The notes beneath the pieces were generated by a model, which did not search any database, had not been told where the DNA came from, and saw nothing but the letters and a program-made list of their open reading frames with translations. From contig NVVD01000002.1 in assembly GCA_002402105.1 (NCBI GenBank), forward strand, positions 71,203 through 135,202: DNA of 64,000 bases, written 5' to 3'. The translations under genes were made by a program, and so were the position numbers. The DNA comes from Candidatus Cloacimonadota bacterium (lineage in GTDB: Bacteria; Muiribacteriota; UBA6191). This document shows positions 1-9,371 of the stretch, piece after piece (position 1 is the stretch's first letter; each line of letters opens with the position of its first letter).

Positions 1-336
1 ATAGAAAAATTATTTAGCCTATTACGTATGCATGATGGAGATTGGTTTTCAAAATCGGTTAGAATGGGTGCTAGTGTTGTAAGTGGAAGACTTTGGTGTG
101 GAACTTTAGGAACAGGTTTTCAAGTTTATCGGACGATGGGGCATAAGGTAAAAACATCTGAGGCTTTGGCCGAGGCAACAGGCTGGGAAGAAATTTATTT
201 AGACGAATATTCATTAAATACCATTGATAAAATAGCAATCACAAGTGATAAAGAACCTGTTTTTTTACGTTCTACTAGTGAGCTAATTTCTGTACATCAA
301 TTTATTACTTGGAGAGGTGGAAAAAGTGGCATTTGA
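1..336 (+). CDS. C-terminal end of an unrecognised protein (5' end outside the window)
   Basis: The reading frame is open from base 1, so this is the last 111 codons of a gene that begins upstream; the ATG at 28 is probably an internal methionine. I do not recognise the family. The visible part is soluble in character, with a glycine-rich stretch (GTLGTGFQVYR), several tryptophans and no clear membrane segment. It ends 11 bases inside the following HEAT-repeat gene, so the two are probably translationally coupled and in one operon. No function is proposed. Confidence 0.6.
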   Translation: MEKLFSLLRMHDGDWFSKSVRMGASVVSGRLWCGTLGTGFQVYRTMGHKVKTSEALAEATGWEEIYLDEYSLNTIDKIAITSDKEPVFLRSTSELISVHQFITWRGGKSGI

Positions 337-2215
337 ATTAAGTGAATCAGAACAGTATGACTTATTTTATGAATTAGCGAAGAGTTTATCCCATCCATCA
401 AGAGAGGTTAGAGTTTCTACAGTTGCTGCTATTTCTCGTATAGCCAATAGAAGATGTACTAATTTATTATTAGATAAATTAGATTTAGAAAAAGATATTT
501 TTATTAAAGCTTCTTTAATTAGAATTTTAGGAGAAATTGGTACTCCAAATTTAATTGATGCATTAGAAAAGTATCAAATTCATTCAGAACCTAGAATCAG
601 AGCAAATGCTATTGAAAGCATGGTAAAGCTTCAAATTAAAAATAAGGAAGAATTAGTAAAAAGAATTATCCCTTGTGTACATGATGAAAATAATAGAGTT
701 TCATCAACAGCTTTGAAAGAGCTATTATCTTTAGGAGAAACTCGTTTTGTGCCTTATTTAAAACTATTACTAAAAGGTACTGATACAAATAGAAAGTCAT
801 CAGCTATTTGGGTAGTGGGTGAATTAGGTTTAGTAGAGTTTGTAGAAGATGTTGTTTTTTCTTTATATTCTGAAAATTATCAAGTGCATTCTATTGCTGA
901 AAGAGTTCTGATAAAATTTAAGGATAAAGCCTTACCTATATTATTTGAAAATCTTTTTATGGGTGACTCAATGGTAAAAGTTTATACTTTTTTATTTTTA
1001 TCTAAGCACTTAGATGAAATAAGTGAAGAGCAAAATGATATTTTATTTAACTTTGTAGAAACAGAAAATGATTTTATTGTTTCATTTGTATTAAAAATAT
1101 TATATAAATTTAAATCAGATAAAGCTTTTAATTTAATGAAATCTTACTTGTTTGCTGAAGATGAAGCCCTAAGAAAAGTATCAATAGAAGGAATATCAAA
1201 CTTTGTAGATAGAGATGAAATTGATGCTTTATTGGTAAAAGCTATTCAATCTGAAAAAGAGCCAAGACTTTTGGCTAGTTTAATTAAGTGTTTAAGTGCC
1301 TTTCCTCAACAGATTTCAGAAGATTTATTAAAAGGTTTTTTAGATCATGAGGATGATCGAGTTTGTGCAAATGCTATTGAGCTTTTTGGAAATAAAGGTG
1401 ATGAAAAACTGTTATCCCTCATTACTCCACATGTAAAAAGTTCTAATAACAGGATTATGGCTAATGCTGCTATCGCTTGTTTTAGATTAGGCGAGAAAAA
1501 AGTATTGGGTCATTTAAAAGAAGCTTTAGTTTCATCAAATGTAAAGATGAGAGCTTCTGCTGCTTTTGCACTAGGAGAAATAGGTTCATCAGATGTAGTA
1601 GAAATTCTTATTGAGCGTTTATTAAAAGATGTTCAATCTGTAAGAAAACATATTATAAATGGTCTATTACAACAAGATAAGGGTATTTATCAAAAGTTAA
1701 TTGATATATTAAAAGAATCAAACTCGATGCAATCAAGAGAAGTATTAGCTGAAATATCTCATAAAGTTAAGACACCTCAAGAGCAAATACAAAAGTTACT
1801 TGAATACTATAGTGATGAAGTTACTGCATTTGAAATTCCAGAAAAAATGTCAGATCAAGAAATTGATGAAGTAATGGAGTTATTATTTTGTAATGATCAA
1901 AAATTAAAAACTTATGGCATCTATATTATGGGTGAGAAAAAGGTTTATAAAAGCGTTTCTAGGTTAATTTGTTTGCTGTATGAAAGAAATGATGACGTAG
2001 TTGGAGAGACTCTTTTGGCTCTTGAAAAATTAAATAAAGAAGAAACTTTAGTTTTTTTAAGAGATGTTTATCCTTGGATGAACAATGAGAATATAGATTT
2101 ATGTGCAAAGGTAATGCAACACTTTGCCAAAGGAAAATTAGACGACTCTTATTTTACAGGTCGTTTGAAAGAAAAACATTTAATTTGCTTAGAAACTTAT
2201 AAAGTGGGTAAATAA
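326..2215 (+). CDS. HEAT-repeat protein
   Basis: A protein of about 630 residues built almost entirely of paired helices with the HEAT/PBS-lyase-type pattern (for example VRVSTVAAISRIA, IRANAIESMVKL, MRASAAFALGEIG). These repeats usually form curved scaffolds for protein-protein contacts. There is no signal peptide or membrane segment, so it is likely cytoplasmic. A GTG at 317 is also possible, but GTG 326 is preferred because the purine-rich GGAGAGG at 311-317 then sits at normal distance. The stop abuts the TTG start of the prepilin-peptidase/prepilin fusion gene, so a scaffolding or assembly role for that pilin-like system is a reasonable inference, but nothing in the sequence shows the partner. 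Confidence 0.8.
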   Translation: MAFELSESEQYDLFYELAKSLSHPSREVRVSTVAAISRIANRRCTNLLLDKLDLEKDIFIKASLIRILGEIGTPNLIDALEKYQIHSEPRIRANAIESMVKLQIKNKEELVKRIIPCVHDENNRVSSTALKELLSLGETRFVPYLKLLLKGTDTNRKSSAIWVVGELGLVEFVEDVVFSLYSENYQVHSIAERVLIKFKDKALPILFENLFMGDSMVKVYTFLFLSKHLDEISEEQNDILFNFVETENDFIVSFVLKILYKFKSDKAFNLMKSYLFAEDEALRKVSIEGISNFVDRDEIDALLVKAIQSEKEPRLLASLIKCLSAFPQQISEDLLKGFLDHEDDRVCANAIELFGNKGDEKLLSLITPHVKSSNNRIMANAAIACFRLGEKKVLGHLKEALVSSNVKMRASAAFALGEIGSSDVVEILIERLLKDVQSVRKHIINGLLQQDKGIYQKLIDILKESNSMQSREVLAEISHKVKTPQEQIQKLLEYYSDEVTAFEIPEKMSDQEIDEVMELLFCNDQKLKTYGIYIMGEKKVYKSVSRLICLLYERNDDVVGETLLALEKLNKEETLVFLRDVYPWMNNENIDLCAKVMQHFAKGKLDDSYFTGRLKEKHLICLETYKVGK

Positions 2216-3268
2216 TTGAATGATTTATTTCTTCAAATATTAGAAATTCGCAGTAATTTATCTTTGTTGCCAACAGAGGTAATAGCTTTTGTAATAGCTT
2301 TATTGGCTGGTATGTCTGGTTCTTTTATTAATATGGCAGTTTGGAGAGTTCCTAGAAAAGAGTCAATTGTTTTTCCAAGGTCTCATTGTCCTGTTTGTAA
2401 TCATGTACTTGGGCTAAGTGATTTGATACCCGTTTTGAGTTATATTTTCTTAAGAGGAAAATGCCAATATTGCAAAACTCCTTATGGCCCAAGATATATG
2501 TATATCGAGTTAATACTAGTATCGATTGCTTTAATTTTATATTTTTCTTTGGGTTTATCTATATATTCTCTTTCTATTTTTGTGATAATATCTATTAGTA
2601 CTTTTTTAATTGGAATAAAAAATTCAAAAAAATTGGATCAAAATATTATTAGTTTAAGTGAAAATACTAAAGGTTTTACTTTTTTAGAAGTAATGATGAC
2701 AATGGTTATTGTTGGGGTGATTATTATTCCATTTGGTAATTTATTTATTAGTTCGTACGGGAGAGTAATTAAGAATAAAAACTATTTAATCGCCTATAAT
2801 TTAGCAGAAGAAAAAATGGAAGAACTACTCTTAGTCGACTTTTCAAAACTTAAATCAGATTTTGAGCTTTATGCTCATACTGCTGAAAATAAAGATTCTA
2901 TTTTTGCTGATGAGCACAATGGTATTTATCAAAAAATGAAAGAAGACGAAGCTTTTTTTGAAAAAAACTTTTCTGACATATATACAAAAAAAATTCAACT
3001 ACCAGTAACTATTATGAAATATTTTAAGAAAAGGTATAAGTTTTATTTTGAAAGAAGCTACGAACTTTACCCAAAGGGATACGAAAACTTTAAGCGAACG
3101 GTTAAAATTACCCCAGTGTATATTGAGCATAATAAAAAATTTAGAAAAGAGTATTTACAAAAACTAGATAAAGAGATTACAAATCTTTTAAAAATGACAG
3201 TAACTGTTTGGATAAAAACAAAATCATTTGAAAGAAAAATAGTTTTATCAAGGTATAGAAAGCGTTGA
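2216..3268 (+). CDS. Fusion of a prepilin-peptidase N-terminal (DiS_P_DiS) domain with a prepilin-like protein
   Basis: Residues about 22-105 match the N-terminal domain of type IV prepilin peptidases (PilD/GspO): a first membrane helix, a GSFINMAVWRVPR-type motif, and two cysteine pairs (C58/C61 and C83/C86) around the conserved LIPVLSY motif. One or two further hydrophobic segments follow up to about residue 134. The aspartyl-protease (A24) half with its catalytic aspartates is absent. Instead residues 152-178 form a textbook class III prepilin start: KG, then FTFLEV with Glu at +5, then a hydrophobic helix. About 170 polar residues follow, as in a minor pilin or pseudopilin. Translation starts at TTG directly after the upstream stop. 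An internal start giving a free prepilin (TTG near 2635) cannot be excluded, but I see no well-placed Shine-Dalgarno for it. Confidence 0.75.
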   Translation: MNDLFLQILEIRSNLSLLPTEVIAFVIALLAGMSGSFINMAVWRVPRKESIVFPRSHCPVCNHVLGLSDLIPVLSYIFLRGKCQYCKTPYGPRYMYIELILVSIALILYFSLGLSIYSLSIFVIISISTFLIGIKNSKKLDQNIISLSENTKGFTFLEVMMTMVIVGVIIIPFGNLFISSYGRVIKNKNYLIAYNLAEEKMEELLLVDFSKLKSDFELYAHTAENKDSIFADEHNGIYQKMKEDEAFFEKNFSDIYTKKIQLPVTIMKYFKKRYKFYFERSYELYPKGYENFKRTVKITPVYIEHNKKFRKEYLQKLDKEITNLLKMTVTVWIKTKSFERKIVLSRYRKR

Positions 3269-3269
3269 T

Positions 3270-3878
3270 ATGAAACTACTAAAATCTAAGGCTTTTACTT
3301 TATTAGAAACCATGATGGTGGCTTCTATTATGATTATGGTTTCTGGTATGATTTATACTTTTCATATCAATCTAGTAAGAACATATTATCGTGGTTCTGA
3401 GATGTTACTAGATGTGCAAGAAGCGCAAACAATTTTAGAAGTAATGACAAAAGAACTTCGTAGTGCTTCTGTATTAGTGAAGCTAACACCAGATTATTTA
3501 GAGTTTTTAAGGTTTTATGATGCTGATTTATTACAAGAAAATGATCCTGTTAAAGATCTCAACAGAATCCAGGTGAAAAAAATAGCTTACAGAATTAGAA
3601 AAGATGATGAAGACTTTTATATTGTTGAAAGACAAGAAGGTTCATCAGCCTTTTTACCACTATCTGGAGGGCTACGCTCTAAAGTGTTAAATCCTAATGT
3701 ATTTAAAGGCTGGAAAAAAACAAGAAAAGGTTACTTTGTTTTTGATCCTAATCGTTCAGGGCCCGATAGAGTTCCATTGATTCAAATCACTCTTGCCTTA
3801 CAAAAAGAAAAAAATCCAATAACTTTGATTAAAAAAGTTTTTTTGCCTGTGCCTTATGGGGCGACTCCTAAATTATAA
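3270..3878 (+). CDS. Prepilin-like protein (PulG/GspJ-type N-terminus)
   Basis: A 202-residue protein with a short basic leader (MKLLKSKA) followed by FTLLETMM, the type III prepilin signal with Glu at +5, and one hydrophobic helix (about residues 9-30). The residue before the cleavage site is Ala instead of the usual Gly; Ala is known to be tolerated by some prepilin peptidases. The C-terminal globular part contains a GspJ-like strand/helix pattern (EAQTILEVMTKELRSASVL), which suggests a minor pseudopilin. It starts one base after the stop of the fusion gene, so the two pilin-like products are co-translated. Confidence 0.7.
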   Translation: MKLLKSKAFTLLETMMVASIMIMVSGMIYTFHINLVRTYYRGSEMLLDVQEAQTILEVMTKELRSASVLVKLTPDYLEFLRFYDADLLQENDPVKDLNRIQVKKIAYRIRKDDEDFYIVERQEGSSAFLPLSGGLRSKVLNPNVFKGWKKTRKGYFVFDPNRSGPDRVPLIQITLALQKEKNPITLIKKVFLPVPYGATPKL

Positions 3879-4090: not shown

Positions 4091-5794
4091 ATGGCTGAAG
4101 CCGTTGATAAGTCAAAAATGAGAATTGGTGATGTGCTCGAATATAGAGGGTATGTTACTAAAGTTCAGATGGATGCTGCATTTAAGAAGCAAAAAGAAAC
4201 AGGTCTTCGACTAGGAGAACAGTTAATTGCTTCTGGAGTGGTTTCTGAAGAAATCATGCTTGAATGTCTATGTTGGCAAAAAGATGTTGCTATGATGTCG
4301 GTTGTAGGTTTAGAGATTTCGCCAACTGCATATGGTATGTTGAGTGAAGATTACATCGAGCAAAACCTAGTTTTACCTATTGATATAAAAGGTAAAATAA
4401 TTACTGTGGTACATAGTGACCCATTAAACTTGAGTTTTATTGCTGATGAAGTTGGTCATAAAACAAATTGTAAAGTAGAGATGTTTGCAGCTACAGAAGG
4501 TGGCATTAGAAAATGTATTGAAGAGTATCGAGAAAAAATGAGAGAGTTTCAACCTCTTATTGATGCTTTAGATGGTGAGTCTCCCGATAAACCAAATCCA
4601 ATGACTGATTTAGTTTATGATCTTGATGATGCTGCTACTCCAATGATTTCTTTTTGTAATATGATTTTAAAGACTGGTATGCAAAAAGGTGCCACAGATA
4701 TTTTTATTGAATTTCATGCAGATCAATTACAAATACGCTATAAGTTAGATGGTGAGGTACAAGAGCTATTAAAATTTCCATCTCTTTTTGATAAACATAA
4801 AGAAAAAGTAGTTGCTAGATTAAAAACTATGGCAAATATGGATATTTCGGAGAAACGTGTACCTCAAGATAGTAAGTTTAAAGCTGTTTATTTAAAGAAG
4901 TCGATGGATTGTAGAATCAGTACTTTACCAACTGTAGAAGGAGAAAGAGTTGTTTTGAGACTTTTACAAAAAGACCGTCTCAATGTGACTTTATCTAATG
5001 CTGGTTTTTCTAATTATTCTTTTAAAGTAATGACACAGCTTTTGGCAAAACCTTATGGACTACTTTTAGTAACAGGCCCAACGGGCTCTGGTAAAACTAC
5101 AACTTTGTATGCATCATTGGCTCATGTTTGGACTCCTAAAAAATCTGTTGTTACTGTAGAAGACCCCGTTGAATATGAGATATTAAACTATGCACAGGTT
5201 CAAGTAAACACTGATGTTGGTTTAGGTTTTGCTGAAAGTTTAAGGGCAATTTTAAGACAGGCTCCAGATATTATTTTAGTGGGTGAAATTAGAGATGGTG
5301 AAACAGCAAAAATAGCCTGTGAAGCTGCTATGACTGGTCATATGGTCTTATCTACACTTCATGCGAATACTGCTGCTAGTTCTGTTATGCGTTTAACAGA
5401 AATTGGTGTAGACCATTATTTAATGTCATCTGTTTTAATAGGGGCTCTTTCACAAAGATTAGTAAGAAAACTTTGTGTTCGATGTAGAAAAAAGGTTCCT
5501 TTGGTAAAAGAGATTCAATTATTTGCAAATAGATATAAGCTTAAGTCGCAGTTTGTATATGATAGTAAAGGCTGTGAGTATTGCCGAGGTAGTGGTTATG
5601 TCGGTCGTTTAGGTATTCATGAGGTTTTAGTAAATACTCCTGAGGTTGGAGATGCTATTACTAGAAAAGTGCCTCCTATGGACCTAGAAGCAGTAGCAAG
5701 AAAAAAGGGATTTATCTCTTTAAAAGATGATGCATATTTAAAAGTATTACAAGGTTTAACAGATTTAAAACAGGTATTAAAAGCCGCAGGTTAA
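4091..5794 (+). CDS. GspE/PilB-family type II secretion/type IV pilus assembly ATPase
   Basis: A 567-residue hexameric secretion ATPase that would power pilin or pseudopilin assembly on the cytoplasmic face of the inner membrane. An N-terminal MshEN/GspE_N-type domain (about 10-145) is followed by the NTPase: Walker A GPTGSGKT at 329-336, an Asp box (VTVEDPVEYE), Walker B DIILVGEIRD near 393-402, a His box (STLHANTA) and a zinc-binding tetracysteine (C462, C465, C495, C498). A second ATPase of this family lies at 49685, inside the T2SS operon. This copy is next to two prepilin-like genes but has no GspF/PilC partner in its cluster, so it may serve a pilus or a variant system. The Shine-Dalgarno TTGGAGAAG lies just upstream of the ATG. 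Confidence 0.9.
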   Translation: MAEAVDKSKMRIGDVLEYRGYVTKVQMDAAFKKQKETGLRLGEQLIASGVVSEEIMLECLCWQKDVAMMSVVGLEISPTAYGMLSEDYIEQNLVLPIDIKGKIITVVHSDPLNLSFIADEVGHKTNCKVEMFAATEGGIRKCIEEYREKMREFQPLIDALDGESPDKPNPMTDLVYDLDDAATPMISFCNMILKTGMQKGATDIFIEFHADQLQIRYKLDGEVQELLKFPSLFDKHKEKVVARLKTMANMDISEKRVPQDSKFKAVYLKKSMDCRISTLPTVEGERVVLRLLQKDRLNVTLSNAGFSNYSFKVMTQLLAKPYGLLLVTGPTGSGKTTTLYASLAHVWTPKKSVVTVEDPVEYEILNYAQVQVNTDVGLGFAESLRAILRQAPDIILVGEIRDGETAKIACEAAMTGHMVLSTLHANTAASSVMRLTEIGVDHYLMSSVLIGALSQRLVRKLCVRCRKKVPLVKEIQLFANRYKLKSQFVYDSKGCEYCRGSGYVGRLGIHEVLVNTPEVGDAITRKVPPMDLEAVARKKGFISLKDDAYLKVLQGLTDLKQVLKAAG

Positions 5795-7328: not shown

Positions 7329-8232
7329 AATTGTCTTGATTAACATCAGAGAAAGAGAGCTCAGCTTCTAAATCAGTAGTGCTTTGTTCATCTAAAATTT
7401 GATTGTCTGTATTAGAAGTTTCTTTTATAATAGATTTAACTCTATCGTATACTTTTTTATTTTTAGCTAAACCGACATGTCCAGTATTTAGTATTTGTAT
7501 ATTTTCTGCTCCTTTAACGCCATATCCACGTAAGCCTCTTTTTTGCCAAAAATTAACAAAGAGATTAACGTGTTCAGGCTTTTGAAAGTGCATAAACTCA
7601 CCACTAAAACCGCCATTAGAGCCTGTTCTTGGATCTAAGGTAATTACATTGTTTACTTGGATATCAGAAACTTTAAGTTTATCTAGCAATTTAAAGGTAG
7701 CAATGCCAGCTCCGAAACTATGCCCTATGATTGTAAGTTTTAGGGTTTCTTTCATGACTTTAGACCATTTAGTAATACATTCGTGAGCAGCATTAGTGTC
7801 AGTCCATCCGTAACCTTTTGTGGCAAAACTATAGTTGAGTTCTTTTTGAATTTTTCTAGTGATATTTCTTTTTACAAAACCGGCAAATTTAGAGCCAAGT
7901 CCTTCAAAAGAAATAACTAAATGACTAACATTTGCTTTTTTTGAGTCGTAAGCTAAAACTTCGCAACTCGCTCTAGGAGATAAAATTTGTCTATTTGTAT
8001 TGGGGGTAGATTCGGCTCTAGTTGTTTGCGGGGTAATTACGGGAGCTTTTATATTTTCGTTACTTGTTGGTAGGTTTGGGACAATAAAAGGAGTTTCTTG
8101 ATCTTTTGCACTTAGAGTTGGTCTAGGAGACTTAGGGTCAAGACCTTGATTATTATTAGTCTCGCAACCGCAAAGAGCAAATAGAAAAAAGATTGAAAGG
8201 GTTCTTAAAATAGAGTTAAAAAATATTCTCAT
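7327..8232 (-). CDS. Lipase-like alpha/beta-hydrolase lipoprotein
   Basis: A 301-residue protein. The signal peptide ends in a lipobox (L20-C-G-C23), so it should be lipid-anchored outside the inner membrane. After a proline/threonine-rich linker (about 28-88) comes a compact hydrolase domain with a complete visible triad: the nucleophile elbow GHSFG (Ser172), Asp200 in VITLDPRTG and His252 in NTGHVGL. The SFEGLGSKF loop near residue 109 resembles a lipase oxyanion segment. The natural substrate (lipid, ester or amide) cannot be told from sequence. It is the last gene of a reverse-strand run, 47 bases after the LPS permease gene, so a role at the envelope fits, but participation in LPS export is not implied. 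Confidence 0.75.
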   Translation of the reverse strand: MRIFFNSILRTLSIFFLFALCGCETNNNQGLDPKSPRPTLSAKDQETPFIVPNLPTSNENIKAPVITPQTTRAESTPNTNRQILSPRASCEVLAYDSKKANVSHLVISFEGLGSKFAGFVKRNITRKIQKELNYSFATKGYGWTDTNAAHECITKWSKVMKETLKLTIIGHSFGAGIATFKLLDKLKVSDIQVNNVITLDPRTGSNGGFSGEFMHFQKPEHVNLFVNFWQKRGLRGYGVKGAENIQILNTGHVGLAKNKKVYDRVKSIIKETSNTDNQILDEQSTTDLEAELSFSDVNQDN

Positions 8233-8279
8233 ACAAGTGTATACGATAAAATCAGAAATTTGTTTCAGATCTTATTTAT

Positions 8280-9371
8280 TTAATATCTACTTTTATAAAG
8301 AAGTATCAAGCCAATAAAAAAACTGACAGTATTGGGAATCCAGTTAGCTATGAATGGGTCTAGTGTACCGTTACCACCTAATGATTTACCCGTAGCTAAA
8401 AGTACGTAATATAAAATCATGATTAGTAATCCCATACCAAAACCGTTGGCTTTACCACTTCTTGTGGGTTTCATTGCTAATGGTGCTCCTACTAAAATCA
8501 TAAAAATTGTGGCAAAGGGAAAGGAGCTTCTCCAATAATATTGAGTTTGAAACTCTTTGGCTGAAAGCTTATTTTGTTTTCTTATTAAAATCTGTTTTTT
8601 AAGCTCTTTCATGTTCATTTCAGAAGGAGATTTATTTTCAGGGTTTCTAACAATATTTTGAGCGTAGCGATCAGATATTGGATAAATCCATTCTTCAAAG
8701 CGGATAATGTACTCGGTTTTACCTGTTTTATCAAAATAGATGGTTTTACCATTTTTAAATGTCCATAAACTACCATCTTTAATTTGAGCTGTTTTTGCTT
8801 TAGTAATTTGTGGATATATAGTGCCAAATTGAAAGAGTGTAACGTCTTTCATAACCTCAGCTTTAGCATCGTATTGTCTAATAAAGAGTTTAAACTTTTT
8901 ACCACCATCAATAAAAATGTCTTTTACGATTTTAGGGAGAGGTTTTTTTAAGGTTATTTCGTTGATATAGACCTCTTGCATCAAAAATCGTCCTTGAGGA
9001 ACAACGATTTCATTTAAGAAAAAAACACCTGTAGAAATAAATGCTCCACAAATTAATAGGGGTAGTATTAATCTAAAAGGAGAAATGCCAGCAGCTTTAA
9101 TAGCGGTAAGCTCTGAATCATTATTGAGTCTTGTTATGCCAAGCATAGTACCCATTAAAACAGCCATAGGAACAGATGTAACTATAATAGACGGTAGTTG
9201 ATAGATAATAATTTTAAATAAGGCTTCTAGTCCGACACCTTTTTGTACAACAAGATTAAGAATATGAATTAGCAAATTAACAATCCAAAGACTTGCAAAA
9301 ATAAAAAAAGAAAAAATGACTGGTGATTTTACTTGTTGTAATACGTACCAATCAATTCGTTTTAAAAACAT
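8280..9371 (-). CDS. LptF/LptG-family LPS export permease
   Basis: A 363-residue YjgP/YjgQ-family inner-membrane permease. There are three N-terminal membrane helices (about 12-125), a periplasmic beta-jellyroll-like region (about 130-265) and three C-terminal helices beginning at YYWRSSFPFATIFMIL, the usual six-helix plan. With LptB this family extracts LPS from the inner membrane toward the LptA/C bridge, which implies an outer membrane carrying LPS or a related glycolipid. Sequence alone does not separate LptF from LptG, and only one copy is in the window. A good Shine-Dalgarno (AAGGAAACAA) precedes the ATG. It lies eight bases after the UPF0210 gene in the same direction. Confidence 0.88.
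   Translation of the reverse strand: MFLKRIDWYVLQQVKSPVIFSFFIFASLWIVNLLIHILNLVVQKGVGLEALFKIIIYQLPSIIVTSVPMAVLMGTMLGITRLNNDSELTAIKAAGISPFRLILPLLICGAFISTGVFFLNEIVVPQGRFLMQEVYINEITLKKPLPKIVKDIFIDGGKKFKLFIRQYDAKAEVMKDVTLFQFGTIYPQITKAKTAQIKDGSLWTFKNGKTIYFDKTGKTEYIIRFEEWIYPISDRYAQNIVRNPENKSPSEMNMKELKKQILIRKQNKLSAKEFQTQYYWRSSFPFATIFMILVGAPLAMKPTRSGKANGFGMGLLIMILYYVLLATGKSLGGNGTLDPFIANWIPNTVSFFIGLILLYKSRY

Follow-up and report, generated by a model that had tools for sequence, protein, structure and literature searches.

A PilD-type N-terminal domain fused to a GspI-like prepilin in Muiribacteriota, and the possible division of prepilin peptidase

PilD (GspO) is treated as one bifunctional enzyme, in which a four-cysteine N-terminal domain (PF06750) is followed by an A24 protease part (PF01478). 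Residue E5 of prepilins has a role in methylation. To our knowledge, the location of the PilD methylase site, and whether the N-terminal domain (N-domain) can act alone, are not settled in the field. In the available sections of PMC3584216, the PilD cysteines, together with the Gly and basic residue beside the third Cys, are described as serving methylation, zinc is required for methylation and not for cleavage, and the role of the four-Cys domain is called less fully explored. An interaction between PF06750 and PF07963 has been predicted, according to the accessible text of PMC6822775. TadV and archaeal FlaK are A24 peptidases without the four-Cys domain, as given in the accessible parts of PMC10191384 and PMC3584216. 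No report of a fusion between a PilD N-domain and a pilin was found in searches of open-licence PMC papers, including the available portions of PMC3584216, PMC10191384, PMC6822775 and PMC6668835.

Here, we describe such a fusion in a window of 64,000 nucleotides from a Candidatus Cloacimonadota bacterium (GTDB phylum Muiribacteriota; contig NVVD01000002.1). From sequence comparison, we see an even chance that PilD is divided in this lineage, with a pilin bearing the methylase half as a leader of 153 residues that would be cut in trans and is predicted to serve as a methylase in trans.

Architecture of the fused gene

The initial annotation had described one continuous frame joining a cysteine domain to a pilin, with the prepilin signal KG/FTFLEV and without the A24 protease domain, and each of these observations was borne out. 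PF06750 and PF07963 lie in a single 350-residue frame (Table 1), which starts with a TTG immediately 3' of the upstream gene's stop and has its own stop at 3266-3268. PF07963 (N_methyl) covers residues 151-171 at 22.3 bits (Pfam cut-off 21.2), and TIGR02532 also scores above its cut-off. The cleavage signal, K152 G153 / F154 T F L E158 V, is of class III type, with G-1, F+1 and E+5 present and a hydrophobic helix following. Among 25 aligned rows (A3), T155 never varies, and G153 and F154 almost never do. The leader is not the short hydrophilic segment of class III prepilins; it spans 153 residues with membrane helices, as judged from hydropathy and the AF2 model.

A motif scan found neither GxGD nor D..(I/L)PD in the window protein. 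In the alignment, the PilD part ends near the cytoplasmic end of TM3, which is approximately the place of PilD's first catalytic Asp, and the corresponding column holds K in the window protein. A hidden A24 site in residues 100-150, which the initial annotation had named as a possible objection, is excluded by the alignment and the motif scan.

Table 1. Features of the fused gene, its neighbours in the window and the separate peptidase
Feature	Position	Strand	Basis or remark
HEAT-repeat protein, directly upstream of fusion	317..2215	+	Pfam; immediately 5' of the fusion in G033 and G035 too
Fusion gene, PilD N-terminal part + GspI-like prepilin	2216..3268	+	Open reading frame, 350 aa
TM1, residues 20-44	2273..2347	+	AF2 helix 20-44, hydropathy
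PF06750 A24_N_bact domain, residues 31-110	2306..2545	+	Pfam, 97.4 bits (cut-off 23)
Cys loop C58-x2-C61-x21-C83-x2-C86, with G81-K82 before C83 (predicted zinc site)	2387..2473	+	Sequence
TM2 (residues 92-112) and TM3 (116-135)	2489..2620	+	Alignment, AF2, hydropathy
Variable linker / leader end, residues 136-153, ending K152-G153	2621..2674	+	pLDDT <50 at 148-165; length varies among relatives
GspI-like minor pilin, residues 154-350, predicted mature start F154	2675..3265	+	PF07963; homology to stand-alone pilin I
Second prepilin-like gene (pilin II, AFTLLE)	3270..3878	+	GspJ-like from position only; N_methyl 19.3 bits, under cut-off
MshEN + T2SSE assembly ATPase	4091..5794	+	Pfam
Partner A24 peptidase of G000	contig C23, about 8035-8955	-	D..IIPD and GGGD present

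The pilin half was modelled (AF2) with a long N-terminal helix and small C-terminal strands. The GspI equivalog TIGR01707 did not match the window protein (P0001) at E <= 0.001, and the relative P0021 scored 19.9 bits, the cut-off being 44.35. Foldseek with both models returned no match at E <= 0.001, and no PilD-type chain was present among PDB sequence matches at E <= 1. A separate internal start for the pilin was considered at an in-frame TTG (L137) and rejected because it is not conserved, several relatives holding F, I or W there.

The last base of the HEAT-repeat gene (2215) abuts the TTG of the fusion. A different gene, with a site-2 protease-like HEFAH motif, takes this place in three other fusion genomes (G029, G031 and G032). 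Pilin II is the next gene after the fusion in the window and in five of the seven other fusion genomes; a scan of the fusion loci did not find it after the fusion in G031 and G032.

Distribution and origin of the fusion

Among 39 genomes of the phylum, the fusion occurs in all eight members of three families: f1, to which the window belongs (four genomes), f2 (three) and f3 (one). At least seven of the eight are MAGs. The search for homologues of the same domain order that the initial annotation had proposed thus succeeded in these genomes, as well as in 19 other full-length database rows (P0003-P0021) that are 40-78% identical, although the two sets overlap, with P0021 lying on the contig of G030 and P0004 resembling the protein of G033. 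One more database row, P0022, is a fragment without the N-domain. Across the 84,980 genomes of the GTDB species collection, 172 relatives were recovered; the best 80 include seven fusions (L003-L009), 71 proteins with GxGD, one with AFGD (L025) and one read out of frame (L021). The linker before the cleavage site differs in length among relatives.

The fused N-domains may share a single origin, which is tenable because they form one group (98/95 support) in a tree of 38 rows for which the tool warns of long branches. Where they branch with respect to the intact and partner domains is weakly supported (84/59).

Variation is also seen at the mature N-terminus. The fusions of G029, G031 and G032 (L126, L130 and L132), three of the four f2/f3 genomes, have Ser in place of Glu at mature position 5. 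Across all fusion genomes this change is found in three of eight, and the window keeps E5.

Sister families carry the same components as separate genes. In G003 (f5), G004 (f6) and G037 (f8), stand-alone genes for pilin I and pilin II come after an intact pilD. In G001 (f4), the gap between intact pilD and pilin II holds pilin I, and in G002 (f5) pilin I comes after pilD. The fused pilin half matches stand-alone pilin I with up to 107 bits and 38-40% identity (G000 and G033 against G001), the BLAST E-values referring to a five-sequence database; the remaining comparisons score lower than 107 bits, and the profile probability is 99.9%. Counting strong long matches only, pilin I is found in 36 of the 39 genomes, 8 of them with the fused form and 28 with a separate gene, and there are only weak matches in G007, G036 and G038. 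A profile built from fused and unfused pilin I matches at E <= 0.001 in all 39 genomes because prepilins share their first helix. Since this pilin has its own gene behind an intact pilD in sister families, the fusion looks like the product of a deletion. The simplest reading is that the protease part of pilD and the gene boundary would have been lost together.

A possible division of PilD in fusion genomes

The retention of PilD residues was assessed against 91 aligned database proteins that carry both domains according to their listing (ordinary PilDs); conservation reaches at least 90% in 27 columns of this alignment. The fusions were represented by 26 rows, one for each of the 8 genomes and 18 from the database, some of them near copies. 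Fifteen of the 27 columns are identical in 26/26 fusion rows, and the Cys quartet and G81 are likewise present in all of them. At the third-Cys site, the Gly and the Cys are each present in 26/26 fusion rows and in 0/22 rows of the partner, the A24 peptidase encoded elsewhere in fusion genomes. In the genomes, this Gly is kept in 8/8 and the neighbouring residue is K, R or, once, H. Seven PilD-conserved columns are poorly kept by the fusions (G54, V63, I65, N116, R130, I136 and S137), with N116 and I136 each found in 0/26. Mean retention of the 27 columns is 0.74 in fusions, 0.86 in the N-only proteins of family f7 (described below), 0.27 in partners and 0.37 in f7 peptidases, the figure for partners being affected by an unsure alignment of their diverged loops. 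The catalytic Asp column is filled in the opposite manner: 0/26 fusions, 0/22 f7 N-only proteins, 22/22 partners and 21/21 f7 peptidases.

The fused N-domain is under strong purifying selection. Its pN/pS (Nei-Gojobori), used instead of dN/dS because synonymous sites are saturated in two pairs, is 0.10, 0.09, 0.02 and 0.06 in four genome pairs. In the same pairs, values are 0.13-0.53 for TM3 and linker and 0.07-0.31 for the pilin, which in the G034-G035 pair lies slightly below the N-domain. The N-terminal part of the partner is also under purifying selection (0.34, 0.22 and 0.13).

The division of PilD appears clearest in f1. In each of its four genomes, PF06750 matches exactly once, in the fusion, and PF01478 exactly once, in an A24 peptidase elsewhere whose N-terminal part lacks most of the conserved N-domain residues. 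The initial annotation had suggested searching the rest of the genome for an intact GspO/PilD: an A24 peptidase with both catalytic motifs is encoded elsewhere, and its Cys loop is rearranged. Contamination as the source of the partner contig was considered (8.6% contamination in the window genome) and is unlikely because orthologs occur in 4/4 f1 genomes. The peptidases of f1-f3 form one group (85/86 support, below the level that the tool marks with a star). The window's genome, G000, has 34 N_methyl matches above the Pfam cut-off, including the fusion, and a single PF06750 and a single A24 peptidase were found in it.

Together, these comparisons suggest how a divided PilD might work. The fusion would be a prepilin with an oversized three-helix leader, and with three TMs in this leader the site of cleavage would face the cytoplasm. 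The cut, between G153 and F154, would be made in trans by a separate A24 peptidase. The freed N-domain, predicted to bind zinc through its four-Cys loop, would be the candidate pilin N-methylase, acting in trans on its own and other prepilins of the cell. Of three options put forward in the initial annotation, namely a tethered modifying or chaperone domain, removal by an in-trans peptidase and a decayed peptidase, the second seems to fit best because an A24 peptidase with both catalytic motifs is present elsewhere in the genome. In the three f2/f3 genomes with S5, the fused pilin itself may be unmethylated because Ser replaces E5.

The Cys loops of the partners bear on a different reading, in which the partner, despite its diverged loop, still has both PilD activities and the fused domain is a zinc or redox sensor, a chaperone of pilin I or similar. 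The f1 partners keep four Cys in 4/4 genomes, with the spacing C-x14-C-x2-C-x18-C. Among partner relatives (22 database rows, A2), almost no variation is seen at C63, C66, H70 and C85, and 15 of the rows have the first Cys (C48). Counting from the conserved Glu, C85 takes the position of PilD's fourth Cys, and therefore the third Cys and the Gly before it would be those lost. This altered Cys/His loop is possibly a working altered metal site. In f2/f3, C-x2-C-x21-C-x2-C is kept in 3/3 complete partners, a count that excludes the G030 partner, which lies in two contig pieces; of these, the f3 partner retains the Gly that precedes the third Cys, whereas both f2 rows have lost it. The f2/f3 partner may still be bifunctional because it keeps the canonical four-Cys spacing. 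However, the absence of the Gly and Cys of the third-Cys site from all 22 partner rows, and an average retention of 27% of the 27 columns versus 74% in fusions (again subject to the unsure alignment of partner loops), make a fully bifunctional partner unlikely.

Alternatively, the fusion may remain uncut, with the N-domain acting as a membrane anchor that turns the minor pilin into a fixed base or nucleation point, or as a docking module that recruits the pilin to the peptidase. The very long and hydrophobic leader would suit such a role, as would the loss of E5 in three of the four f2/f3 genomes. Nevertheless, the cleavage-site residues G153, F154 and T155 are conserved as described for the 25 rows, and the linker before them varies in length and is modelled at pLDDT <50, so that we consider an uncut fusion improbable.

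That a functionless, decayed peptidase was captured by a pilin gene, the third option of the initial annotation, would agree with the missing A24 part but is very hard to reconcile with pN/pS of 0.02-0.10 in four genome pairs and a Cys quartet kept in 26/26 rows. A sequencing error, frameshift or assembly artefact joining two genes can practically be dismissed given the identical architecture in 8/8 f1-f3 genomes and in further database proteins.

An apparent second uncoupling and comparison with known systems

Family f7 (24 genomes, G005-G028) appears to represent a second uncoupling of PilD's halves by a route different from the fusion. A PF06750 protein without A24 residues is found in 22 of its genomes, a separate non-TadV peptidase in 21, and both in 19. 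The peptidases have the spacing C-x4-C-x2-C-x7-C in 15/21. The N-only proteins (for example, L140 and L155) end in an inert membrane tail and often adjoin pilus genes. When this tail was compared with A24 (hhalign), only 47 columns aligned, at a probability of 80.5. The N-only protein of G016 shows an apparent GxGD, but this falls at position 27 of a frame that was extended too far, and it was rejected as an active site. Three relevant frames occur in G024: one for an N-only protein, one for a peptidase that is interrupted by Ns and, on contig C206, one with both PF06750 and A24 (L157), the last of which counts against a strict split in that genome. The C206 frame, itself containing runs of N, is possibly a contaminant.

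An f7 N-only query matched 820 database proteins. Among the best 120 of these, the first 107 have no A24 domain, and 13 name an organism: Riflebacteria/Ozemobacter (10), Erysipelotrichia (2) and Gammaproteobacteria (1). Several of the proteins described here, for example P0003, P0021, P0201 and P0206, have database names such as 'prepilin peptidase' despite lacking a protease site, and automatic annotation therefore misreads them.

It can be proposed tentatively, at somewhat less than even chances, that PilD has split at least twice in one phylum and that in one lineage its methylase subunit has become the detachable leader of a pilin polyprotein, each minor pilin bringing one unit to the membrane to act in trans on the cell's prepilins. 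With the PilD halves on two proteins and their residue losses largely complementary, the fused N-domain would offer a candidate minimal methylase that can be assayed without the protease.

Compared with known systems, the f7 N-only proteins share with the fusion a PF06750 domain without the A24 active site and, in most genomes, a separate A24 peptidase, but they continue into the inert membrane tail where the fusion continues into a pilin. Minor prepilins of the GspI/PilV type share the class III signal and, in the model, the long N-terminal helix and small C-terminal strands. However, known prepilins have short hydrophilic leaders, which in the fusion are replaced by a far longer, three-helix membrane domain of 153 residues, and the fusion scores under the GspI model cut-off. 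TadV and FlaK keep the protease without the methylase domain, whereas here the opposite half is kept and is fused to a protein of the substrate type. Finally, the fusion shares with PilD/GspO (PF06750 + PF01478) TM1, the C-x2-C-x21-C-x2-C loop with Gly and a basic residue before the third Cys, the RYxxxE motif, TM2 and TM3; it differs in lacking the A24 protease part, in place of which a pilin follows in the same chain.
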